This document shows positions 411 through 22,976 of a stretch of 25,612 nucleotides of DNA, one piece after another; the first letter of the stretch is position 1; every line of letters starts with the position of its first letter. The stretch is taken from NCBI GenBank assembly GCA_003697085.1, contig RFFU01000007.1:1-25612 (forward strand), written 5' to 3'. The notes under the pieces are model-generated. The model saw nothing but the letters and a program-made list of their open reading frames with translations, ran no database searches and was not told the origin of the DNA. Source of the DNA: Candidatus Hydrogenedentota bacterium. GTDB taxonomy: Bacteria > UBA8481 > J006. The translations under genes were made by a program, and so were the position numbers.

Positions 411-1703
411 ATGGGTTTGTTGAAAAAAGTCTCGGTTGCGTTGTTGCCCGCTTTTCTGTTTTCGGGGTTTTATTTTGTTTTTGCCGTGAGGGGAGGAATG
501 CCGCGGTATCTTCCCAAGCATCTTTTATGGCTCTTTTCCCTCCTCGTAACTGCGGCTTTGGTAACGGGTCATCCGGGGCTGAGAAGAATTCTTTCGCGGA
601 GAAGCCGGGAAGTTCTCGTGCTGCTCACTCTCTCCTATTTCGCGGCGGCGTTCGGCTTTGGCCACCTCGCCAACGCAGACGCGCATGCTCCGGAACTCTA
701 CAATTTTCATCGTGAATTTCTCTCGGCGACTCAGGGGCGGCTCTTTATTCACCCGAGCGAACACCGCCCAGAATTCGCCATTCATTTTTCCCCGATATTT
801 TTTCTCCTTTACCCTTTCTTCAAATGGGTTCCCTCTCCCGTCACTTTGCTGTTTCTTGGTTCGGTGGCGCTGAGCGCCGCGATTCCAGCGGCCTTTCGTG
901 TCTTGAGAGGTTGGTGGAATGAGCCAGAAGCAATCCTGCTGTCCACCGGCGCCGGCTTGATGCCGGCGATTCTTTCGCTTCATATGGATTTTTCTCCCGT
1001 CCGGTTTGCTCCGTTGGCTTTTTGGTTGATGATCGAAGGAATGGAACGGCGACGTTGGAGTCTTTGGTGGTGCGGTTTCCTGATCGTCCTGGTTTCGAAG
1101 GAAACGCTCCTTCTGGGGGTTGTTTTCTTTTCCGTGGTCGCGTGGATACGCCGAATGCCGACGATATGGATTATCCTTCCCGGAACCGTAGGACTGACGA
1201 CATTCCTCATAATCAACCAATTTCTTATTCCAGCTTTCGCCGGAACACCCGGACAGACCTCCACCATCGCCGCCCAATTCGGGTATTGGGGAAGAACAGC
1301 CCCGCAAGTGTTGATCGGGTTTTTGAAAGATCCGGTTTCCGTTGGAAAGGCTCTTTTTCGACTGAATAACGCTGCCTATCTCCTCAAGATGTTCCATGGG
1401 GGATTGTTTCTAGCGCCGTTGGGGTCCCCCTATCTTTTTCTGGGACTGCCCGAGGCTCTGGTCAATATGCTGGCCGGTTACCATCCGGGCCTTATTCCCA
1501 TTGACAGACCGGGGCCTTGGACGAGTCTGCTAGGGCATTACAGTGCGGTCTTTTCGACCGCGGTTTGGGCATCCGCTTGCCACGCGCTGCGTTTTCGCGC
1601 GGAAGATTCCGAGACCGAGTTCACGGGGTGGCAACGTGCGCGCTGGCTCTTCCTGGCGGTACTCTCGACAATGATCTATCCCAGTAACGCGGAGACGCTT
1701 TGA
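411..1703 (+). CDS. DUF2079-family membrane protein, probably 3'-truncated
   Basis: A 430-residue polytopic membrane protein with about nine hydrophobic segments. Residues around 85-135 carry the DUF2079 signature: an early acidic patch (NADAHAPELYNF), then HFSPIFFLLYPFF, and further on MDFSPVRFAPLAF. DUF2079 proteins are predicted GT-C-like integral membrane glycosyltransferases found in glycan clusters, but their substrate is unknown. The expected C-terminal part of the family, a soluble segment with a pattern like IPpdasVsA, is absent. The frame ends soon after the last hydrophobic stretch, just where a minus-strand gene fragment begins, so I read it as truncated by a deletion. The ATG at 411 is chosen because the hydrophobic N-terminus follows directly. 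Function after truncation is doubtful. Confidence 0.75.
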   Translation: MGLLKKVSVALLPAFLFSGFYFVFAVRGGMPRYLPKHLLWLFSLLVTAALVTGHPGLRRILSRRSREVLVLLTLSYFAAAFGFGHLANADAHAPELYNFHREFLSATQGRLFIHPSEHRPEFAIHFSPIFFLLYPFFKWVPSPVTLLFLGSVALSAAIPAAFRVLRGWWNEPEAILLSTGAGLMPAILSLHMDFSPVRFAPLAFWLMIEGMERRRWSLWWCGFLIVLVSKETLLLGVVFFSVVAWIRRMPTIWIILPGTVGLTTFLIINQFLIPAFAGTPGQTSTIAAQFGYWGRTAPQVLIGFLKDPVSVGKALFRLNNAAYLLKMFHGGLFLAPLGSPYLFLGLPEALVNMLAGYHPGLIPIDRPGPWTSLLGHYSAVFSTAVWASACHALRFRAEDSETEFTGWQRARWLFLAVLSTMIYPSNAETL

Positions 1704-1988: not shown

Positions 1989-3584
1989 TTGGAAAAGTTG
2001 AAAGAATCTCGACTGTATGGTTGGAGAAGATTAACGGTGGCTCTTTTCTGTCTCCTTCTTCTCGAAATCCTCCTTCTTGCGTATGGCACGATCGTGTTTC
2101 AAGGCGAAGCGGCTTACCTTTACGATGTCCATTTCTTTCGAAAGGGCTTGAGGCCCTATTCGGAGTTTCGGGTTCCCCAGGGGCCGATGATACTGGCGGC
2201 CTATTTTGCCGTTGGAAAATTGGGATCGACGGGAATTTGGGACGCGCGGGTCTTGTCCGGCTTCTACCTGGCTGTGGCGCTTTTGCTCCTTTCACGGATG
2301 ACCTTTCTCGAACGCGGTTGGGCGGGGACAGCGGCGTTTCTCCTCCTCCAAATGTGTTTTCCCCTTTCCCTTCAGCATTCCGCCAGCCTCGTCGGACCGT
2401 ACGTGCTGGCCTTGCTTCTCCTGGTCGTCGCTGTCTGGAGCGTCGTGGATCCGGTTCTTGGGGATCGAATCGGTTCACTGTCATTTGGGTTCTTTGGTAT
2501 CTTGGCCGTGGCATCTCGGATCGTCTTTCTTCTGCCTCTCGGTCTGTTGATCCTTTTGTTCAACAAGAGAGAATCAGGTTTTTCTCTTTATCTCACTATC
2601 TTGGGCGGCATCAGCGCTTTCGGCGCACTTTTTCTTTTTCTTGTCCCCGCGAATGACCTCGCTTCCGTCTTCGACCAGATGGTGCGGGTGTATTGGTTGA
2701 GTAAGGTGGCGCATCCCGTCGAGGGCGTCGGATTTGATGTCGTGGGAAGAATTTTCCATATCCTTCGATTCGGCCTTCTTCCCTTAGCGGGATTGGTTCT
2801 CACCGTGGGGATCGAGGGAGTCCTCTTGATTGCGGAAAAGCGAAATGCCCTCGCTCGGGAGGAAAGGGGGAAACCGGTGGAAAGCGCCGAGGGAAAGAAG
2901 GGATTGGCGGAAACAGCCTTTGTCGCGGGTATGGGAACGCTTCTTGCCCATTTTGTCGTCCATCCCTTTTATGCTCAATATTTTTCAATGGTGGTGCCGT
3001 GGTTGGTTATGGCGGCGTTATTGTCTCTTTTCCGACTCTGGGAGAACAAAAGGAGAATGGTTGTCGGAATACTGGCGGGGGTTCTCTTGGCTAACGCGGC
3101 GGCGGATATTCGGGCCGCTCGCGCTCTCTGGAGCCTCGGTTCCTCTCAATTGGTGTTGACACAAAAGATCGGAAAGAAATTAAGGACGCTTTTTCCCGGA
3201 ACAAAAGCCGTCATTTGCGACGTGACGGCGTTCTCCTGGGAGGCGGGCTTTGAGGTTCCGGTTGGTACGGAACGAGGTTTGGCTACGGATTGGTTCGAGT
3301 TGATCGAAAAGGTTGCGGCATTGGAGCCGAATCTCCTCAAACGCTACCACACGCTCCGTCGAAGGGATGTGGAGTTACTCATCCGAAACAGGGTCTTCGA
3401 GGGAGTCATCTTGACGGAAACGCAGTGGTTCGATGAGGAAATCCGAAATTTGCTTCCCAGTGCCGGCTACAAACGGATTGCAACATTAAACGGCGGAAGA
3501 TGGGGAAGGGTCGAATGTTATCGGTTGGCGGAGCCGATCCGTTCCAAGAGATTTGCGGCCCATTCCGAAAGATCAATCGAATGA
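1989..3584 (+). CDS. GT-C family membrane glycosyltransferase (GT39/ArnT-like)
   Basis: From the TTG at 1989 this is a 531-residue protein with about ten to eleven membrane segments and a soluble C-terminal domain of roughly 130 residues. After the first membrane segment comes a periplasmic-type loop with YDVHFF and VPQGPM. This is the usual GT39/PMT_2 layout, in which an acidic residue in the first large loop is catalytic. Such enzymes move a sugar from a polyprenyl-phosphate donor to an acceptor on the outer face of the cytoplasmic membrane. With the GT2 and deacetylase genes at 6373-8210 it could supply the final transfer step. The 3' end overlaps the convergent DUF354 gene by 67 bp. An upstream ATG at 1818 is possible but less likely. 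The exact donor and acceptor cannot be told from sequence. Confidence 0.75.
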   Translation: MEKLKESRLYGWRRLTVALFCLLLLEILLLAYGTIVFQGEAAYLYDVHFFRKGLRPYSEFRVPQGPMILAAYFAVGKLGSTGIWDARVLSGFYLAVALLLLSRMTFLERGWAGTAAFLLLQMCFPLSLQHSASLVGPYVLALLLLVVAVWSVVDPVLGDRIGSLSFGFFGILAVASRIVFLLPLGLLILLFNKRESGFSLYLTILGGISAFGALFLFLVPANDLASVFDQMVRVYWLSKVAHPVEGVGFDVVGRIFHILRFGLLPLAGLVLTVGIEGVLLIAEKRNALAREERGKPVESAEGKKGLAETAFVAGMGTLLAHFVVHPFYAQYFSMVVPWLVMAALLSLFRLWENKRRMVVGILAGVLLANAAADIRAARALWSLGSSQLVLTQKIGKKLRTLFPGTKAVICDVTAFSWEAGFEVPVGTERGLATDWFELIEKVAALEPNLLKRYHTLRRRDVELLIRNRVFEGVILTETQWFDEEIRNLLPSAGYKRIATLNGGRWGRVECYRLAEPIRSKRFAAHSERSIE

Positions 3585-5835: not shown

Positions 5836-6372
5836 GTCGGAGACGGCCGATCTTGTGGAACCGCGGCCGCCGTGTTCGCCTGCCTGCCCACCGGTCAGGC
5901 GGCCAAGCCGTATCTGCTTCGTTTTCGGAGGAAAATGACCTCGGCCGGGTGCCCGGCAAATTTTTGGCATGGTCAAATTTAGCCAAACAGGCATTCCTGG
6001 GAGCGCAGGCCTGTCTGCCGGCAGGCAGGCATCTTGCCTGCAAAAACGGGCTTGTAGAGGGTCACCTTTCGGTCGCCCCGATCATAGGGGGGGTTCGCCC
6101 AGGAGTGGACAGATACGATTCGGCAAAAGGTGCCCATTTTTCGCCATGCACACACCTCGATTTGGCTCCCGGCGGTGCCACCGGGCATTTTCCAGATACA
6201 GCCTGGCCTTTCCGCTCCCCTTCCCGCCTTCGGATCGTGACATTTCGGCCCGGCCCGACTCAGACCGGTGCTCGCCGATCGTTCGGACCGAGCCTGGAGG
6301 GGAGCGAAGAGATCGGATTGGAAAAGAACGAAGGGGGAAGGACCCTCGCGTCGGGCCGGAGTCCAATCCGCC
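5836..6372. other. Intergenic stretch with repeat copy B, no supported gene
   Basis: The region lies between two convergent gene ends. It holds a CCTGCCTGCC / GTCAGGCGG imperfect palindrome near 5879-5905, then repeat copy B. After that comes about 200 bp with an imperfect CCCGGCGGTGCCACCGGG palindrome (about 6168-6185). No T-run follows the palindrome on either strand, so I do not call it a terminator. Open frames here look like translated repeat sequence. Confidence 0.6.
5946..6154 (+). repeat. Miniature inverted-repeat element, copy B
   Basis: It aligns nearly end to end with copy A. Shared blocks include GCATTCCTGGGAGCGCAGGC, GGCAGGCAGGCATCTTGC and TTCGGCAAAAGGTGCCCATT. The right terminal repeat GCCATGCACACA (6143-6154) is largely kept. 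The left end (GGGTGCCCGGC, about 5947-5957) has decayed. The central GCAGGCATCTTGCCTGC (about 6023-6041) is a clean hairpin. Confidence 0.75.
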
Positions 6373-7365
6373 CTATTCTTCGCGGTTATCGATGGAGGGG
6401 CGCTGCGCTCCTTCCCCTCCGTTGATTTCTTCCCGCACGGTGTAGGTTTTTCGTCCGGTCGAGGCGTAATAGATCCGCGTCGAAACCTCACCCAAAATCC
6501 CGAAGAGTACGAATTGGATTCCCAGACCGAGGAGGAAGATAGATACAAGGAAAAGGGGGCCGTGATAGGCAATGGGCACCTGTTGGATCAATTTACGATA
6601 GGCGACGAAGAGACTTCCTCCGCAACCGAGAAGGAGGAAGAAGAGTCCGATGAGGCCGAAAAATTCCAAGGCGCGCGAGATGTAGCTCGTGAAGTATTTG
6701 ACCGTAATAATGTCAAACAAGACCTTGAGGATCCTGCCCAACCCGTAGTGCGAAGTGCCATGTTTTCTGGGAGGATTATGGATCGGGTGTTCATAAATCC
6801 GGTAACGCCCACTCCAGCTGACCAGCGCCGGAATGAAGCGGTGGAGTTCGGAGTACAATTCCAGTCCTTCGAGAACCTCGGCACGGTACGCGTGAAATGT
6901 TCCTCCGAAATCGTGAAGTTTAATGCCGGAGACGAGGGCAATGATCCGATTGGCGATCCAGGAAGGAATTCTTCGGGTGAAAAGGTTATCGCGCCTTTTA
7001 TGACGCCACGTCGTCACGATATCGTACCCTTCCGCCAACTTCTTCAACATTGCGGGGATCTCTTCCGGTTCGTGCTGAAGGTCAGCGTCCATCGTAACGA
7101 TGAATTCTCCTCGCGCCGCCTCGAAGCCGGCCGAAAGCGCCGCGCTTTTTCGAAAGGTCCGTCGAAACGAAATTCCCCGCACGGAAGGATTGTCGCGGGC
7201 CAATTTTTTGATGAACTCCCAGGAGCCGTCCGTGCTCCCATCGTCGATGAAAATGACCTCGAAGGAATAAGGAAGGGAATGGAGAATACGATCCAAACGA
7301 TTCCAGAGTTCCGGAAGGCTTTCTTCCTCGTTGAGGACCGGAATAATGACGGAAACGAGTCTCAT
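6373..7365 (-). CDS. GT2 polyprenyl-phosphate glycosyltransferase (ArnC/FlmF2/GtrB type)
   Basis: A 330-residue protein with a cytoplasmic GT-A domain and two C-terminal membrane segments (about residues 230-305). Catalytic landmarks are VSVIIPVLNEE at the N-terminus, DDGSTDGS (41-48), GFEAARGEFIV and the metal-binding MDADLQHEP (92-100). This is the architecture of ArnC, GtrB and dolichol-phosphate-mannose synthases, which load a sugar from a nucleotide donor onto undecaprenyl or dolichyl phosphate. The ATG overlaps the stop of the upstream YdjC-type gene (ATGA, 7362-7365), which predicts translational coupling. That pairing mirrors flmF2-naxD and arnC-arnD, so the lipid-linked product is probably deacetylated by the neighbour. 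The sugar itself cannot be identified. Confidence 0.9.
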   Translation of the reverse strand: MRLVSVIIPVLNEEESLPELWNRLDRILHSLPYSFEVIFIDDGSTDGSWEFIKKLARDNPSVRGISFRRTFRKSAALSAGFEAARGEFIVTMDADLQHEPEEIPAMLKKLAEGYDIVTTWRHKRRDNLFTRRIPSWIANRIIALVSGIKLHDFGGTFHAYRAEVLEGLELYSELHRFIPALVSWSGRYRIYEHPIHNPPRKHGTSHYGLGRILKVLFDIITVKYFTSYISRALEFFGLIGLFFLLLGCGGSLFVAYRKLIQQVPIAYHGPLFLVSIFLLGLGIQFVLFGILGEVSTRIYYASTGRKTYTVREEINGGEGAQRPSIDNREE

Positions 7366-8210
7366 GGGATACCGCAGGTATTGTAATCGCGGAAGGAGGT
7401 CAACGCGATACGAAAGTCGTGCAGGAGATTCCGGGCTTGGGTTGTCGCAAGGGTATCGAGTTCTTGTTTTCTTTCTTCAACGAGGCGGTTTCGCACGGTT
7501 TTCTGAATCTGGTGAAAGCGGGAGTCGATCCTCCCCGGGTGGGAAATCAATTCCGTGAGCCCGGCGGGGAGTTTCGAGAGGATGTTTTTCAGAGTTGCGA
7601 GAGTTCGAGGTGGTGTCGTGATGCCTCGTGTGTGATCCGGAGTCGCCCGGCCGAGGCGGCGAAGTCGGGCCCGCGCCGGCAGCGAGAGGAGGGAAAGAAA
7701 TGCGGGAAGGGAGAGGGGGAGAACGGCCTCTTCCCGAATGGTCCGCACGAAGCGGATGCGATATTCTACGGCCAATTCGGCGACAGAGGGAAAGAACGTG
7801 GGCCAGAGATGAAGGTGTTTGTCGCTGTCAAGATGAGAAATTGGAAGACCGAGTTCGAGGACGCGTTCAATTTGAGCCCGGAATTCCTCGAGGGCCAGGC
7901 GCCGGCCCGTCGGTGAAGAGAGAACATACCTCAAGATTTGGCGCACATCTTCCCGGAAGGAACCTCCGGATGAGGTGAGACGGGAACCGCGAAGAGAGCG
8001 AAGAACGGGGCGGAAGCGGTAAATGTTGAGATGAATTCCGATGTCGAGAGAAGGAGTGTCGAAAGCCCGAGCGACCGCGTCGGTAAAATCGGGCGCGTTG
8101 GCCAGAAGCCCGGCGGCTGTTACGACTCCCGAGAGGTGGCTCTCGAGTATTCCTTCGTTGACGTCACGCGACCAACCAAAATCATCGGCGCTTACAACGA
8201 GAAATTTCAT
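7362..8210 (-). CDS. YdjC/ChbG-type carbohydrate deacetylase (NaxD-like)
   Basis: From the ATG at 8210 this is a 282-residue protein with the YdjC (PF04794) motifs. SADDFG (8-13) supplies the metal and catalytic aspartates, GIHLN has H60, SHLDSDKHLHLWP (125-137) supplies H126, D130 and further histidines, and ELISHPG is near the C-terminus. Family members remove N-acetyl groups from sugars. ChbG acts on chitin disaccharide, and NaxD in Francisella acts on undecaprenyl-phosphate GalNAc. The gene overlaps the following ArnC/FlmF2-type GT2 by 4 bp and follows the SGNH gene by 58 bp, so a lipid-linked amino sugar is the best guess for the substrate. An upstream in-frame start at 8306 would overlap the SGNH gene and lies outside the conserved domain. 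Confidence 0.85.
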   Translation of the reverse strand: MKFLVVSADDFGWSRDVNEGILESHLSGVVTAAGLLANAPDFTDAVARAFDTPSLDIGIHLNIYRFRPVLRSLRGSRLTSSGGSFREDVRQILRYVLSSPTGRRLALEEFRAQIERVLELGLPISHLDSDKHLHLWPTFFPSVAELAVEYRIRFVRTIREEAVLPLSLPAFLSLLSLPARARLRRLGRATPDHTRGITTPPRTLATLKNILSKLPAGLTELISHPGRIDSRFHQIQKTVRNRLVEERKQELDTLATTQARNLLHDFRIALTSFRDYNTCGIP

Positions 8211-8268: not shown

Positions 8269-9378
8269 TCATCGGTACCATCGTTCGCATATCCCCTCGG
8301 CCACAAGCCTGGTGCCGCGTTCCGTCAAGTGGCCGTCCAGGGGAATATAGAGTGCTTCCGGATCCGCTGCTCTTTCAAAAAGGGGCGTCGGGTCGAGATA
8401 TTCGATATCGAGTTGCTCAAGAATATCGGCCAAGAGTCGGTTGGGGAGATGCGGTTGAATGTCGCCGTCGTGATATCCAGACGCTTGAGCGGCTCGTTCT
8501 CGGCGGGATGGAATGACCTGGACGGCATCGGGGATCATCACAACGCGGAGCGGGCGGGAATCGAGTTCCGATAATTGTTTCCATTCGCGGAGAATTTTCC
8601 TCGTCTCAGACCAGCCGCGTTTCCAAGGATCGCGATTCAAATTGGAGGGAACGAGCATTGCAAGAGCGTCCCGTTCGACGGCGGCGTAGAGCGTGTGGGG
8701 ATCGGGCCGTCTTTGAAGTCGGCCTCGAAGGACGCGAAAAATCACCCGGCTCCAGGAATAGACGGCCGACCGGCCCAGCAGCGGATCGAGCCGTCGCCTG
8801 ACCCACGAGGGCCGATAGGTCGCCAGATTTCCGTCGATGACGGAAACGAAAAGATTTCCTGTAGCGTTGTCATAGGCGTCATTGCCGAGGTAAAAGGAGA
8901 GGAGAATTTCGTCGGGAGCCAATCGAGCCAGAAGCCCTTTTCGCTCAATCTTGTAGAGAAGGAGGCACTGAAGGGTCGAGTAACTGGGAACTCCAAAATT
9001 GAAGACACGGGTGGGGATCGATTGCGAGTCAAGAAGCGATTCCAGTTTGCCAGGGATGGTTTGCTCGGCACGATCCAGGCCCTGTCCGAACATAAAGGAA
9101 TCTCCAAAGGCCGCGATCCGTTTTTCCCCGGGACGCCGGGGGGCATCCCAGGAACCGCCTCGAAATCCATAGGTGTTGAGACGCTCCCGCCGATAGAGAA
9201 ACCCTGGTCGAAGACGAAAGGCCAGAACCTTATCGGCACGGTACATTCCGCGAGAGGATTCCAGTGCCGGTACTCCCAGAAGGAGTTGCAGACTTCCCTC
9301 CAAGAGAAAGAGCGAAAAAAGAAGTCCCAAGAGAATTGCCAGAGTGTGACGCTTTCCTCTTCCGGTCTCGCGCTTCAT
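8269..9378 (-). CDS. Membrane-anchored SGNH hydrolase-type protein
   Basis: A 369-residue protein with one N-terminal membrane anchor (about 12-35) and an extracytoplasmic SGNH/GDSL domain. All four blocks are visible: FGDSF (91-95) with the nucleophilic serine, NFGVPSYST (127-135), LGND (164-167) and LDGHLTERG with D348 and H350. In glycan clusters such proteins add or remove O-acyl groups on the outer side of the membrane. It leads the minus-strand operon SGNH > YdjC > GT2. Its ATG is only 25 bp from the divergent methyltransferase ATG, with no room for a normal leader. Whether it is an esterase or an AlgX/AlgJ-like acetyltransferase is not decidable here. Confidence 0.85.
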   Translation of the reverse strand: MKRETGRGKRHTLAILLGLLFSLFLLEGSLQLLLGVPALESSRGMYRADKVLAFRLRPGFLYRRERLNTYGFRGGSWDAPRRPGEKRIAAFGDSFMFGQGLDRAEQTIPGKLESLLDSQSIPTRVFNFGVPSYSTLQCLLLYKIERKGLLARLAPDEILLSFYLGNDAYDNATGNLFVSVIDGNLATYRPSWVRRRLDPLLGRSAVYSWSRVIFRVLRGRLQRRPDPHTLYAAVERDALAMLVPSNLNRDPWKRGWSETRKILREWKQLSELDSRPLRVVMIPDAVQVIPSRRERAAQASGYHDGDIQPHLPNRLLADILEQLDIEYLDPTPLFERAADPEALYIPLDGHLTERGTRLVAEGICERWYR

Positions 9379-14126: not shown

Positions 14127-15290
14127 ATGACGGAGAGAAAGCGAATTCTTCTTGTCACGAATCTGTATCCGCCCCATGCACGCGGCGGAGCGGAGTGGGT
14201 GGCCGCCGATATTGCCGAGTATCTTTCGGCGGCGGGGTTCGATCTGCAAATCTTAACGAGCCGCGGTACGGCGAGTTCGGCTCGAAAAACCAGCAGTCCT
14301 CCGAAAGTATTTCGTCTTTTGATCGAACGGGCCGGGCGCCGGCCGGAAGATTTTGCTGGCCGTCTCCGGCATCTCATTTTGGACGAGTATTATGACCCCG
14401 TGAACGCGGCCTTCTTTCGGGCAACATTGGAACGCTTTCGTCCTCATTTGATCTATCTTAATGCCCCCACCGGTCTCTCTCACGCTCCCTTCCTTCTTTC
14501 TCTTCGAACTCGCCTGCCGCTTCTGATTCATTTGCATGATTATTGGTTGAGAGATTTTCTCGCTCATCGGAAACTCGGTTTCCTGAATCGCTCGCTCTTC
14601 AACCGACAGGTCGCTCGAAAAGAATCGCGGATATCGCTCGTGGCCGTCTCGGAACGTGTGGCCGAACTTTACGGGCCGTTCCTTCCTCCCGGTATTTCCT
14701 TGGAGGTTGTCCCCAACGGCGTTCGTCCTCCGTCAATGGTTCCCCCAAAAGACGATGAACGAAAGGATTGCCTTTATTGTGGGCGCATTTCCCGGGCCAA
14801 AGGGCTTCACGTTCTTGCCTCATCGTCAATTCGGTGCGACGTTCTTGGTGATCCCAATAACGAATATGCCCGCGAATGTCAAAGGATCGCTGGAAACCGT
14901 CTTCACTTTCTGGGCCGGGTGGATCGGTGTCGAGTTCCGGAAATAATGTCACGGTATCGTATTCTCCTGTTGCCTTCGCTTTGGGAGGAACCCTGTCCCC
15001 TGACGCTCCTGGAAGCGATGAGTGTCGGCTGCATTCCCGTGGCGTCGAGAATCGGAGGAATACCGGAACTGGTTGCCCCGACCGGCCAACAACCATGCGG
15101 AATCTTGGTGGAGCCGGGGGATGCGAAGGGGCTCGAAAAGGCCGCGAAGAGTGTGTTGGAGGATAAGGCGAGGAGGTTACGGCTTTCCAATCAGGCGATC
15201 TTCTTGGCTCGAAATCATTTTCCGTTGAACAAAACGTTACAACGCATAGAGACGATTTGTCGGAGATTGATGGATTTCCGGTCAAAGTGA
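14127..15290 (+). CDS. GT4 family glycosyltransferase
   Basis: A 387-residue soluble GT-B enzyme. The N-terminal domain opens with ILLVTNLYPPHARGGAEW (7-24), the usual GT4 start with a GG loop. The C-terminal donor domain contains VVPNGV (194-199), YCGRISRAKG (217-226) and PSLWEEPCPLTLLEA (283-297), where E288 and E296 form the EX7E motif. It probably transfers a sugar from a nucleotide donor to a lipid-linked intermediate in the cytoplasm with retention of configuration. AAGGA about 6-7 nt before the ATG at 14127 supports this start over the longer frame from 14016. It is divergent from the flippase gene. A repeat element begins right after its stop. Confidence 0.9.
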   Translation: MTERKRILLVTNLYPPHARGGAEWVAADIAEYLSAAGFDLQILTSRGTASSARKTSSPPKVFRLLIERAGRRPEDFAGRLRHLILDEYYDPVNAAFFRATLERFRPHLIYLNAPTGLSHAPFLLSLRTRLPLLIHLHDYWLRDFLAHRKLGFLNRSLFNRQVARKESRISLVAVSERVAELYGPFLPPGISLEVVPNGVRPPSMVPPKDDERKDCLYCGRISRAKGLHVLASSSIRCDVLGDPNNEYARECQRIAGNRLHFLGRVDRCRVPEIMSRYRILLLPSLWEEPCPLTLLEAMSVGCIPVASRIGGIPELVAPTGQQPCGILVEPGDAKGLEKAAKSVLEDKARRLRLSNQAIFLARNHFPLNKTLQRIETICRRLMDFRSK

Positions 15291-15420
15291 GGAACCAGAG
15301 CTCTGCAGGTTCCCGAAAAAAGGGATATACTGAAGAGCCACAGAGATCACAGAGGGTGAAATGAAAAAAAGGAGGAGATCCGAAAGCCCGCGGATTTTAC
15401 GCGTTCGCTTTTTTCTTTTT

Positions 15421-15800: not shown

Positions 15801-15851
15801 CCTTTCTTCGCGTTTTACGCTTTCAGAAAACGACATTCGCCGGTCTTCTCT

Positions 15852-15895
15852 TTCCTTCTTCCTCCGTGACTTCTTCCTTCTTCCTCCGTGACTTC
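15852..15895 (+). repeat. Exact 22-bp tandem duplication
   Basis: Bases 15852-15873 are repeated exactly at 15874-15895. The unit begins TTCCTTCTTCCTCC and ends GTGACTTC. It lies inside the right module of copy E and probably arose by replication slippage. Confidence 0.85.
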
Positions 15896-18824: not shown

Positions 18825-19474
18825 GGTGTCCGAGTTCGAGGTGTTATGAGGGCGCGGAGACGGCGTTGGAAAGCGTCGAGAGCATTGTTGAAGAAGCGTG
18901 TGAAGGAGGAAGCGTTTTCCCAGGGAGCGACTTTCGCGTGAGGTCCGTCCCGTTTCTCCTTCGTGAGTTCGAAGGCTCTGAGAAGAAGGGGGGAATGAGC
19001 CGGGGGGGAAAAGGCGATTTCCGCCACGCGCTTGTAGGGAGGCACGAGGGTATGGAACCATTCCCGGTCGAAGATCATAAAGTGTCGGTTCGTGTAATCG
19101 TAGCCTTTTTGGCGACTGACGAGCGGATCGTAGCCGTAGAGTGTCGATAGTGCCCGAGAGAGGGAGATCCTTTCGGAAAGGTAAGCGGTGGCGAGACTTT
19201 TGAGGGAAGTCGTTACGATCCGACAGCGTCCCCCGGGTTTGAGGACACGATGAATCTCCAGGAGGATATGACGGGCCTGCCGTTCGGAGAAATGTTCCAT
19301 TACCCCGATCGAGAAGCATTCATCGATTTTTTCCGAGCGGAAGGGGAGGGCGTTGAGGTCGGCCACGACATCGACGAAAGGGGCGGGCCGGAGATCGATG
19401 CGAAAGATCCGTCCGCGGCGGATGTAGCGTTTTCCGCCCGAACCCAGTTCGAGGCGCAGGGGTAAGTGCTTCAA
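18821..19474 (-). CDS. SAM-dependent methyltransferase, short N-terminus
   Basis: From a TTG at 19474 this is a 217-residue protein that begins almost at motif I, LELGSGG (8-14). This is usual for the compact glycan-cluster methyltransferases that open with an LxLGxG strand. Then follow FRIDLRPAPFVDVVADLNALPF (short: RIDLRP, VVADLNALPF), FSIGVMEHFSE and the EIHRVLKPGGRCRIV strand. The TTG overlaps the stop of the bi-domain oxidoreductase (TTGA, 19471-19474) and the stop overlaps the next GTG, so the three genes should be translationally coupled. A longer frame from 19543 would overlap the conserved end of the upstream gene. The substrate is unknown and probably a sugar or lipid-linked sugar. 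Confidence 0.8.
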   Translation of the reverse strand: MKHLPLRLELGSGGKRYIRRGRIFRIDLRPAPFVDVVADLNALPFRSEKIDECFSIGVMEHFSERQARHILLEIHRVLKPGGRCRIVTTSLKSLATAYLSERISLSRALSTLYGYDPLVSRQKGYDYTNRHFMIFDREWFHTLVPPYKRVAEIAFSPPAHSPLLLRAFELTKEKRDGPHAKVAPWENASSFTRFFNNALDAFQRRLRALITPRTRTP

Positions 19475-21606
19475 AGAAGGATGGGAATTCCGCGGCGTAA
19501 ACTCTCCGCCGCGGCCAGAGTTGTTCGAGAGGCTTCCAAGCATTCAGAGGGAGACAACCCCTCCGGGCTTCCCGTGGAAAGGTACCGCAGGAAGGAGCGG
19601 CAGCAATCTTTGTGGCCGAGGTCGCGCGAAGCGACGAACCCGTCCTTCCGTTTTCCGTAAACCGTCAATTTTCGAAAATCCTCGAGAACAATACTTCGCC
19701 CACCGCCATGCCATTCCACCTTTTCCCGTGGGAAGCCTCGTCCTCCTTGAGTCGTGAAGACGAGAGTCCCCAAGGCCCCATTGTCATATTCCACGGAGAC
19801 CCGGAAATTTCTTCGTTGGGCGAAGGGAACCTCGCGCGATTCGGTACAGTAAGCCGTGACACGGGTCGGTGAACTCTCCGAGAGGCGGTTGAGAAAATCG
19901 AAGAAATGGTCGCATTCCGCCAGCAGTCGTCCCCCCCCTTGAACGGGGTCAAGTGTCCAATGGTCGTTTGGAATCGGGCCGGTCATTACGGTGTACGTTG
20001 CGATGCCCGGGGTCCCAGCGAGATACTCGAACATCCTGCGGGCCAAGGGAGCGAAGCGACGGTTGAGACCAACGAAGAAGGGCCTCGGATTTCGTTCGAT
20101 CTCCCCGAGCAAGGCGTTGTATTCGTCGGGGGTCAAGGCCGGTGGTTTCTCGACAAAGACGGCCTTTCCCGCCTTGAGAGCCCGAACGGCAAGGGCGGCG
20201 TGTTGATCGTGACGCGTCGCGATGACGACGGCGTCGAGTTGCGCGGAGAGAACCTCCTCGATGTCGGTCGTTATGGTTCCGGAGCGGAGGAGTTCCGCCG
20301 CGGTCCGCGCCGAAACTCCGGATCGCGAGCACAGGATCGGGATCGCGGCGCCGGCCGCCAAGAACATCGGTCCCAATGTGGCTTGAACAAACCCCCCGGT
20401 TCCAATAAAACCGAGCCTTGGTTGTTTTTTCGGAATCGGTGTCGCCGGGATTTTGATCGATCGGGCGGCGGCGAGGACGTCTTGGTTCTTTTCAACGGAG
20501 CAGGGATAGGACAACAACGCCGCAATGGCGCGGCCGTCAGTGATAGCGTCGTAGGCTTCCTGCGCCCTTTCGATCGGAACCTCGATATCAAGAAGGTCGT
20601 TGACGGCGATTGCTCCGTCGCGAAGCATTTCGAGGAAGGAGAGAAGATTTTTGTCCAGCGGCCAACGAACATAACCCGGCGGGTAGGTTATGAGTCCGTT
20701 CCGATAGCCGGGGTCAAAGATGCCGGGGCCGTAAGAGCGGGAAAAGCCGACATCGAGTTCCTTTTTCCAGAAGGGATCACGGTCAAAATCGAGGCGAACG
20801 AGCCCCAGGATGATGACACGCCCTCGTTCCCGGCAAAGACGAAGGGCTTGATTGATAACGGAGCGATCGTCTGATTTGGCGGCGACCAAGACGCCGTCGG
20901 CGCCGCGTCCGGCGGAAGCCTCCTGAACGATTTCCTCAAGTTCCGAGGGCGGGACTGCGATACCACCGGTTGCCTCGGAAAACCGCCGCCGCCTTTCCTC
21001 GGAGGGATCGCTCGCGATGACGAGGGTTCCGGCGGAGGCAAGGATTCGCGCCGCGATCTGGCCCAACAAGCCCAAGCCGATGACGACGACGGTCTCCCTC
21101 AACTCCGGTCTTAAGCGCCGAATTCCCTGGAGTGCAATGGCCCCGACCGTGCCCCACGCCGCATTTTCGGCGGCCAGACCTTCGGGAACCTTGACCGCAA
21201 AGGTCTGCGGAACCGAGACGTACTCGGCATGTCCTGCGCCCGCGAAGGCCACCGTGTCTCCCACGTGGAAGCGATCCACGTTCCGCCCAATTTCGATGAC
21301 CACCCCACTTCCGGAGTAGCCCAAAGGATGAAGTTTTTTCAGTTCAACCTGCACGCGCCCGAGAAATTCCCGAAATCCGGCGCCGCGGAGAGTCCGCTCG
21401 ATCTGATTTTTCGTACGAGAGTCCGTCAAGGCGAGGCGTCCCAATTCGGGAACCGATTTCTTCAAGGTCGCGGACTCGGTGCCGGCGCTGACGAGGGAGA
21501 AGGATGTGGCGACGAGAACCTCATTGTCCGCGACGACGGGTGCGGGAATATCGAGCACCAGGCACTTGCCCCCCGGATCGAGGGCTCTTCGGAAAACCTG
21601 TTTCAT
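19471..21606 (-). CDS. Bi-domain oxidoreductase (MDR dehydrogenase + Gfo/Idh/MocA)
   Basis: A 711-residue fusion. Residues 1-375 are a medium-chain dehydrogenase with the family start MKQV, SLVSAGTES (37-45), HPLGYSGSGVV (93-103) and the nucleotide-binding IGLGLLG (176-182). Residues 395-711 are a Gfo/Idh/MocA oxidoreductase with LGFIGTGGF (398-406) and the catalytic VEKP motif (485-488). This fusion is known from exopolysaccharide loci, often near heparinase II/III-type and asparagine synthase genes. It probably oxidises or epimerises a sugar or sugar acid, with each half binding NAD(P). The ATG at 21606 is preferred over 21645 because the family starts MKQV. GAAGGTGAG precedes it closely. 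It leads the operon to the methyltransferase and the LPG-TM protein. Confidence 0.9.
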   Translation of the reverse strand: MKQVFRRALDPGGKCLVLDIPAPVVADNEVLVATSFSLVSAGTESATLKKSVPELGRLALTDSRTKNQIERTLRGAGFREFLGRVQVELKKLHPLGYSGSGVVIEIGRNVDRFHVGDTVAFAGAGHAEYVSVPQTFAVKVPEGLAAENAAWGTVGAIALQGIRRLRPELRETVVVIGLGLLGQIAARILASAGTLVIASDPSEERRRRFSEATGGIAVPPSELEEIVQEASAGRGADGVLVAAKSDDRSVINQALRLCRERGRVIILGLVRLDFDRDPFWKKELDVGFSRSYGPGIFDPGYRNGLITYPPGYVRWPLDKNLLSFLEMLRDGAIAVNDLLDIEVPIERAQEAYDAITDGRAIAALLSYPCSVEKNQDVLAAARSIKIPATPIPKKQPRLGFIGTGGFVQATLGPMFLAAGAAIPILCSRSGVSARTAAELLRSGTITTDIEEVLSAQLDAVVIATRHDQHAALAVRALKAGKAVFVEKPPALTPDEYNALLGEIERNPRPFFVGLNRRFAPLARRMFEYLAGTPGIATYTVMTGPIPNDHWTLDPVQGGGRLLAECDHFFDFLNRLSESSPTRVTAYCTESREVPFAQRRNFRVSVEYDNGALGTLVFTTQGGRGFPREKVEWHGGGRSIVLEDFRKLTVYGKRKDGFVASRDLGHKDCCRSFLRYLSTGSPEGLSPSECLEASRTTLAAAESLRRGIPILL

Positions 21607-21657
21607 CTCACCTTCAATCAAGACAGAGAAGACCGTAAAAGTCAAGAACCCCTCTTC

Positions 21658-21938: not shown

Positions 21939-22691
21939 ATGGCGAGGACGGGTATCGTGGGATCGGATGAGGCGGTTCGGTGGCCGAAAAGGGTTCCTGT
22001 TCTTACGGAAGAACAGGAGAAGATTCGGGATGAGTTTCTTTATGAATGGCTGAAAACGCTTCCGGCCAGTCCCTGGTATCGCAGGCTTGAACTCTTCAAT
22101 CAGACCTACGTTCTCCCTCGAAAAATTCTCAAGGGATCGAGAACCCTGGAAATCGGAGGAGGGCTCGGCGCTCATCTGGAATTCGAGGAATGGGCCGATC
22201 AAGAATACACGGTGCTCGAAATGCGTCCCGAATTTGTTGAAAAACTGAAAGAGCGTTGGCCCGGAGTGGAGGTGGTGCAGGGAGACATACAAAGGCGCTG
22301 TTCCTTCGAGGACGATACCTTCGATCGTGTCGTGGCCATTCACGTGTTGGAGCATCTTCCGAATCTTCCCGCCGCCTTGAAGGAGATCCGAAGAGTCTTG
22401 AAACCGGAAGGGGTTCTCAGCGTGGTCATTCCGTGCGAGGGGGGGTGGGTGTATGAGGTCGCCAGGAAAATTTCCACGAAGAGAATGTTCGAAAGGAAAT
22501 ACAAGACGTCCTACGAATGGTTCATTCGTTCGGAACACGTCAACACGGCTCAAGAGATAATCGAGGAAATGGAAAAGGAATATCTTCTTTCGGATAAGAC
22601 ATTTTGGCCGACAAGAATCCCGGTGATCAATCTGAATCTGGTAATCGGAATGACCCTTCGTATCGGAGACGCTCGGACGTCGACCGATTGA
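21939..22691 (+). CDS. SAM-dependent methyltransferase (Methyltransf_11)
   Basis: A 250-residue class I methyltransferase. Motif I is TLEIGGGLGAHL (69-80), followed by YTVLEMRPEFVE for ribose binding. VEVVQGDIQRRCSFEDDTFDRVVAIHVLEHL (short: VVQGDIQ, FDRVVAIHVLEHL) and IRRVLKPEGVLSVVIP complete the fold. A C-terminal region with YKTSYEWF and EHVNTAQEI is typical of a subfamily seen in polysaccharide loci. It stands alone on the plus strand, divergent from the oxidoreductase operon and followed immediately by repeat F. The start is uncertain. The ATG at 21939 lacks a clear ribosome binding site. A GTG at 21957 preceded by GAGGACGG is an alternative that keeps the whole domain. Confidence 0.85.
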   Translation: MARTGIVGSDEAVRWPKRVPVLTEEQEKIRDEFLYEWLKTLPASPWYRRLELFNQTYVLPRKILKGSRTLEIGGGLGAHLEFEEWADQEYTVLEMRPEFVEKLKERWPGVEVVQGDIQRRCSFEDDTFDRVVAIHVLEHLPNLPAALKEIRRVLKPEGVLSVVIPCEGGWVYEVARKISTKRMFERKYKTSYEWFIRSEHVNTAQEIIEEMEKEYLLSDKTFWPTRIPVINLNLVIGMTLRIGDARTSTD

Positions 22692-22976
22692 GTAACCGGA
22701 GTTCTGCAGGTTCCCGAAAAAAGCGATACACCACAGAGACACAGAGATCACAGAGGATAAAATGAAAAAAGGAAGAGATCCGAAAAAACCCGCGGATTCA
22801 ACGCATTCGGGTTTTTCATTTCCTTTTCTCCACGGGGGGTAAGCGTTTTTTTCAGGTTTTACGCTTTCAGAAAACGACGTTTGCCGGTCTCTTCTTCCTT
22901 TCTTTCTCCGTGACTTCTCCGTGTCCTCTGTGTTCTCCGTGGTTTCCTCGTATGCGACTTACAGAAGTCCGGTGAG
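22692..22976 (+). repeat. CACAGAG/CTCCGTG repeat element, copy F (contiguous)
   Basis: A 285-bp element beginning at the first base after the methyltransferase stop. Its ends form an imperfect terminal inverted repeat: the left end contains ACCGGAGTTCTG and the right end CAGAAGTCCGGT (about 22962-22973). Inside are CACAGAG units on the left, an AACCCGCGGATTC...GAATGCG-type hairpin region near 22788-22825, and CTCCGTG/CTCTGTG units on the right, so most of it can fold back on itself. Copy E shares both halves. It could act in mRNA 3'-end formation as well as being a repeat. Confidence 0.7.

Follow-up and report, generated by a model that had tools for sequence, protein, structure and literature searches.

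Two overlapping genes in a polysaccharide locus of a Candidatus Hydrogenedentota bacterium (GCA_003697085.1) encode a glycosyltransferase of family GT2 and a YdjC-family deacetylase. Do they make and deacetylate a lipid-linked amino sugar, and for which glycan? The window analyzed is the whole 25,612-nucleotide stretch from position 1 to 25,612 of contig RFFU01000007.1, read on the forward strand. We compared its genes with curated family models, solved structures, other YdjC loci, and the rest of the genome.

Gene layout

The GT2 and YdjC reading frames are both intact (Table 1). The plus strand reads tcat at their junction, so the YdjC stop codon and the GT2 start codon overlap as ATGA. The preliminary description had placed the pair here and called it coupled by this overlap, and both the frames and the overlap are present in the sequence. 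The order of transcription is SGNH, YdjC, GT2. The SGNH gene lies on the same strand, 58 bp upstream of the YdjC gene, and probably heads the operon. Scans for promoters and terminators found roughly as many candidates as in shuffled sequences.

Table 1. Features of the locus (positions are those of the window)
Feature	Position	Strand	Basis
DUF2079 membrane protein, candidate GT-C transferase	411..1703	+	PF09852 1e-31, 111 bits
Candidate GT-C, polytopic membrane protein, unclassified	1989..3584	+	Pfam and PDB sequence searches, both without a match
GT2, ArnC/GtrB/FlmF2 kind of polyprenyl-phosphate glycosyltransferase	6373..7365	-	PF00535 5e-37; 330 aa
ATGA, overlap of YdjC stop and GT2 start	7362..7365	-	Sequence
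Carbohydrate deacetylase of the YdjC family	7362..8210	-	PF04794 1.2e-50; 282 aa counted from ATG
Asp130 codon GAC, aligned to ChbG His125 (third zinc ligand)	7821..7823	-	Alignment; ligand according to PMC9402603
SGNH/GDSL hydrolase, membrane anchor at N terminus	8269..9378	-	PF13472, subthreshold; GDS motif in translation

The neighbors of the pair in the window encode a flippase, a GT4, a GT2, an acetyltransferase, and the GT-C candidates. The SGNH-YdjC-GT2 operon itself contains no GT-C gene. The DUF2079 relative named earlier was recovered with its Pfam family. The second GT-C candidate had been called GT39-like. It matched neither a Pfam family nor a PDB sequence, so its membership in GT39 is unproven. 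These two proteins are putative GT-C partners of the pair.

The window has other features. A repeat of about 200 bp, interspersed in the genome, occurs at 145 to 355 and 5942 to 6151. It has at least 46 matching places in the assembly (40 of 153 candidates scored), and the window has no Rfam match. Direct repeats of two families, 85 to 86% identical, keep their order between two places (15288 to 15374 with 22689 to 22775, and 15803 to 15874 with 22847 to 22918). On the minus strand, an open reading frame at 1621 to 1980 without a Pfam match has an anchor that by eye resembles that of the SGNH protein; it is possibly a gene fragment. Also on the minus strand, 19471 to 21645 encodes one protein in which a zinc-type dehydrogenase is joined to a GFO/IDH/MocA oxidoreductase.

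The GT2

The GT2 contains the motifs IDDGST and MDADLQHEP. It has two hydrophobic segments at the C terminus that start near residues 228 and 263. The account of a two-membrane-segment GT2 with intact DDGS and DADLQHEP motifs was thus borne out. The best solved relative in a PDB sequence search was ArnC (9bhc, 5.3e-51), followed by sll0501 (1e-33), and the protein shares 33.6% identity with ArnC of E. coli. It scored 189.6 bits against the ArnC model NF007986, below the cut-off of 529, and 146.9 bits against the PgfS model. The GT2 domain, the two C-terminal membrane segments, and the solved homologues all have the character of a polyprenyl-phosphate GT2. Given ArnC-type relatives and layout, yet an ArnC score below the cut-off, we class it as a polyprenyl-phosphate transferase in kind and not as ArnC proper.

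The GT2 carries Thr70 at a site that is Asn in 40 of 45 relatives. Close homologues (E of 1e-45 or better) were found in 190 of 386 genomes. Among the matches listed, one other homologue (genome G356) sits at a YdjC place, as compared by eye. The GT2 is therefore of a generic type, and pairing with YdjC, almost never seen among those matches, was rejected as a hallmark of its subfamily. The genome also has a partial paralogue, 47% identical, at the ends of two of its contigs.

The YdjC protein

The deacetylase scored 173.3 bits against PF04794 (cut-off, 29.7) over profile positions 2 to 265 of 266. It is the sole YdjC match in the assembly. The protein starts shortly upstream of its ADDFG motif, and no signal sequence is evident. 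The nearest curated model is that of HpnK (TIGR03473), with 152.9 bits, below the cut-off of 232.6. The ChbG model NF002559 gave 112 bits, below the cut-off of 227.

An AlphaFold model built with nine sequences had a pLDDT of 86.1 and a pTM of 0.87. Its structural matches were EF3048 (2i5i, Z 30.4), ChbG (7vi8, Z 30.2), and CmCBDA (Z 28.1). ArnD (8t0j) was a distant fold match, with Z 12.4 and 11% identity. HpnK references formed a supported group in a quick tree. Tree tests rejected neither the grouping of the window protein with HpnK (p-AU 0.622) nor that with ChbG (p-AU 0.588). A firm placement with ChbG, which the preliminary description had named as evidence against it, was not found; kinship with ChbG was also not rejected.

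These folds and this tree are compatible with a ChbG-type deacetylase that acts on soluble chito-oligosaccharides and has nothing to do with the adjoining GT2. The ChbG model score is less than half its cut-off, the window has no identified chb-type gene, and the gene overlaps translationally with that of a lipid-linked-sugar synthase. We consider a ChbG-type role very unlikely.

In kpChbG, zinc is bound by D11, H61, and H125, and D10 and H206 are the proposed base and acid (PMC9402603). Residues D9, D10, H60, and H224 of the window protein correspond to D10, D11, H61, and H203 of ChbG. The equivalent of ChbG H125 is D130. The canonical ChbG-type active site combines a base Asp and an acid His with an Asp-His-His metal triad, and four of these five residues are kept. 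The assignment to the YdjC family stands, and the metal-binding motifs reported with it are present in part: the third zinc ligand is changed.

Among 181 YdjC open reading frames, the third-ligand site is His in 166, Asn in 8, Glu in 3, Gln in 2, Asp in 1, and Ser in 1. The window protein is the only Asp carrier. Six related proteins with Asn at the site, all from one phylum, lie mostly between glycosyltransferase-like genes, as judged by eye. A GT2 gene was within 600 bp of 6 of the 15 non-His YdjC proteins and 27 of the 166 His proteins; as a hallmark of GT2 pairing, a non-His ligand is only suggestive because related sequences are counted repeatedly here. YdjC deacetylases of glycosyltransferase operons may form a class in which Asp, Glu, Asn, or Gln replaces the third His of the metal site and which is adapted to nascent or lipid-linked glycans and not to free oligosaccharides, but we regard this as doubtful. 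Some YdjC proteins have repeatedly lost the third zinc His, and several of these lie close to glycosyltransferases, which raises a specific and testable question about the mechanism of the family.

The change could also mean that the deacetylase is weakened or inactive, with a disabled zinc site in a pair that is degenerating or noncatalytic. The rarity of Asp where most YdjC proteins have His, the departure of the GT2 at its own conserved Asn, and the long branch of the YdjC protein all fit such a loss. The two frames are nevertheless intact and coupled, and the remaining four active-site residues are conserved. Asn, Glu, and Gln recur at the site, and related Asn and Glu groups occur in several genomes near glycosyltransferase-like genes. 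Asp can itself bind zinc. An inactive deacetylase is a minority reading, about as doubtful as the proposed class.

Recurrence of the pair

We counted ArnC/DPM-like GT2 genes on the same strand within 300 bp at loci of at least 9 kb, with the other genes of the same loci as controls. Such a GT2 accompanied 17 of 110 YdjC genes and 21 of 662 control genes (odds ratio, 5.6; p 3e-6, by a statistic that ignores relatedness). GT2 genes beside YdjC genes occur in many bacterial families, and a GT-C enzyme is frequently encoded there as well. Within one family, three genomes (L175, L182, and L199) share the order YdjC then GT2, with GT2s 45 to 47% identical, and two of the three have a 4-bp overlap. 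PMT/ArnT-like GT-C genes adjoin the pairs at L075, L082, L099, and L258, the last of which also carries LAB_N and an ArnT-like protein. L101:4943-6562 is a natural fusion with a GT2 domain at residues 5 to 175 and a YdjC domain at 258 to 518, and it adjoins a PMT_2 protein. The order of the window's genome is represented by a single further genome, which has no YdjC, a sample of one for the conservation in related genomes that the preliminary description had asked about.

On a viral contig, an open reading frame (L262:2423-3898) looks by eye like a YdjC-like region joined to a downstream glycosyltransferase-like one.

The pairing is widespread and recurrent and so is not a new system. The preliminary description had proposed a previously undescribed variant, and this was not supported. 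Its view of the coupling and of the general FlmF2-NaxD or ArnC-ArnD logic fared better, as the pair recurs with PMT/ArnT-like GT-C proteins and is fused once. It had also suggested a search for conserved GT2-YdjC-SGNH neighborhoods. GT2-YdjC recurs, and the SGNH part did not at the loci compared. The SGNH protein scored 28 bits against PF13472, below the cut-off of 32.9. At the other YdjC loci compared (L161 to L259 left out), the SGNH, DUF2079, and 1989-3584 proteins had no homologue. On these loci, the SGNH protein as a conserved part of the system, and with it a conserved three-gene block, was rejected.

Lipid A and hopanoids in the genome

The assembly encodes LpxC, which makes lipid A a possible acceptor. 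It also encodes squalene-hopene cyclase (633 bits), HpnH (531 bits), and HpnN (875 bits), with an HpnL-like protein below the cut-off and a weak HpnG match. This hopanoid gene set (L154, G000:C15) is on a different contig from the pair. HpnI was not found in the assembly, which is 94.6% complete; the best match had 39.4 bits against a cut-off of 310. Across Alphaproteobacteria, a survey found that hpnI, hpnK, and hpnJ occur together or are missing together in nearly all cases (PMC12583986). With no HpnI and a score under the HpnK cut-off, HpnK proper was rejected for the YdjC protein.

The pair might still replace HpnI-HpnK in hopanoid glycosylation, with the GT2 adding GlcNAc to bacteriohopanetetrol and the YdjC protein deacetylating it. 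A hopanoid pathway that lacks HpnI would leave room for this, HpnK is the top curated model for the YdjC protein, and the tree allows HpnK kinship. YdjC-GT2 pairs at L199 and L254 are also near an HpnN-like RND transporter (532 to 542 bits, below the cut-off of 752). The GT2 is of ArnC type and not of HpnI type, the YdjC protein falls short of the HpnK cut-off, and the pair sits among polysaccharide genes, on a contig other than that of the hpn genes. We consider the hopanoid route improbable, less so than the ChbG-type role.

Proposed function

The gene coupling, the protein families, the predicted fold, and the recurrence of the pair were observed. They suggest, with a probability of roughly 0.55, that the pair makes and deacetylates undecaprenyl-phosphate N-acetylhexosamine whose sugar is destined for lipid A or a surface glycan. 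On the cytoplasmic side of the inner membrane, the GT2 would load undecaprenyl phosphate with an N-acetylhexosamine taken from a nucleotide sugar. The cotranslated YdjC protein, using a metal site that includes Asp130, would remove the acetyl group and leave undecaprenyl-phosphate hexosamine. This would then be flipped, and a GT-C transferase may pass the amino sugar to lipid A or to the surface glycan that the polysaccharide locus produces. We counted the Asp in place of the third zinc His, Thr70 and the generic type of the GT2, the operon without a GT-C gene, and a YdjC tree that settles on neither HpnK nor ChbG against this role. If the function is right, a lipid-linked route to amino sugars, familiar chiefly from modified lipid A, extends to a poorly sampled lineage. 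It would perhaps serve other surface glycans too.

Comparison with known systems

ChbG, EF3048, and CmCBDA share the YdjC fold with the window protein (Z 28 to 30), and D10, D11, H61, and the acid His are conserved. The window protein differs in its Asp for His125 and in its context, which is glycan synthesis and not catabolism.

ArnC-ArnD-ArnT, which adds aminoarabinose to lipid A, has the same logic of an ArnC-type polyprenyl-phosphate transferase with a deacylase. ArnD is related only as a distant fold, and no arnA or arnB gene was recognized in the window.

HpnI-HpnK, for hopanoid glucosamine, also combines a GT2 with a YdjC-family deacetylase, and HpnK is the nearest curated model. In contrast, the window GT2 is ArnC type, the genome has no HpnI, and the YdjC protein is below the HpnK cut-off.

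FlmF2-NaxD(-FlmK) adds galactosamine to lipid A. In Francisella, the LPS genes flmF2 and flmK are near neighbors (PMC4688374), and the substrate of Acinetobacter NaxD is undecaprenyl-phosphate GalNAc (PMC10927774). The window operon differs by having no GT39 gene and by Asp130 at the zinc-ligand position. A nearby ArnC/FlmF2-like GT2 would be expected of a NaxD-type protein, and here the ArnC-type GT2 overlaps the YdjC gene directly, a likeness in family and neighboring gene. Both systems have an ArnC-like GT2 and a YdjC-type deacetylase for undecaprenyl-phosphate N-acetylhexosamine, as predicted here for the window pair.
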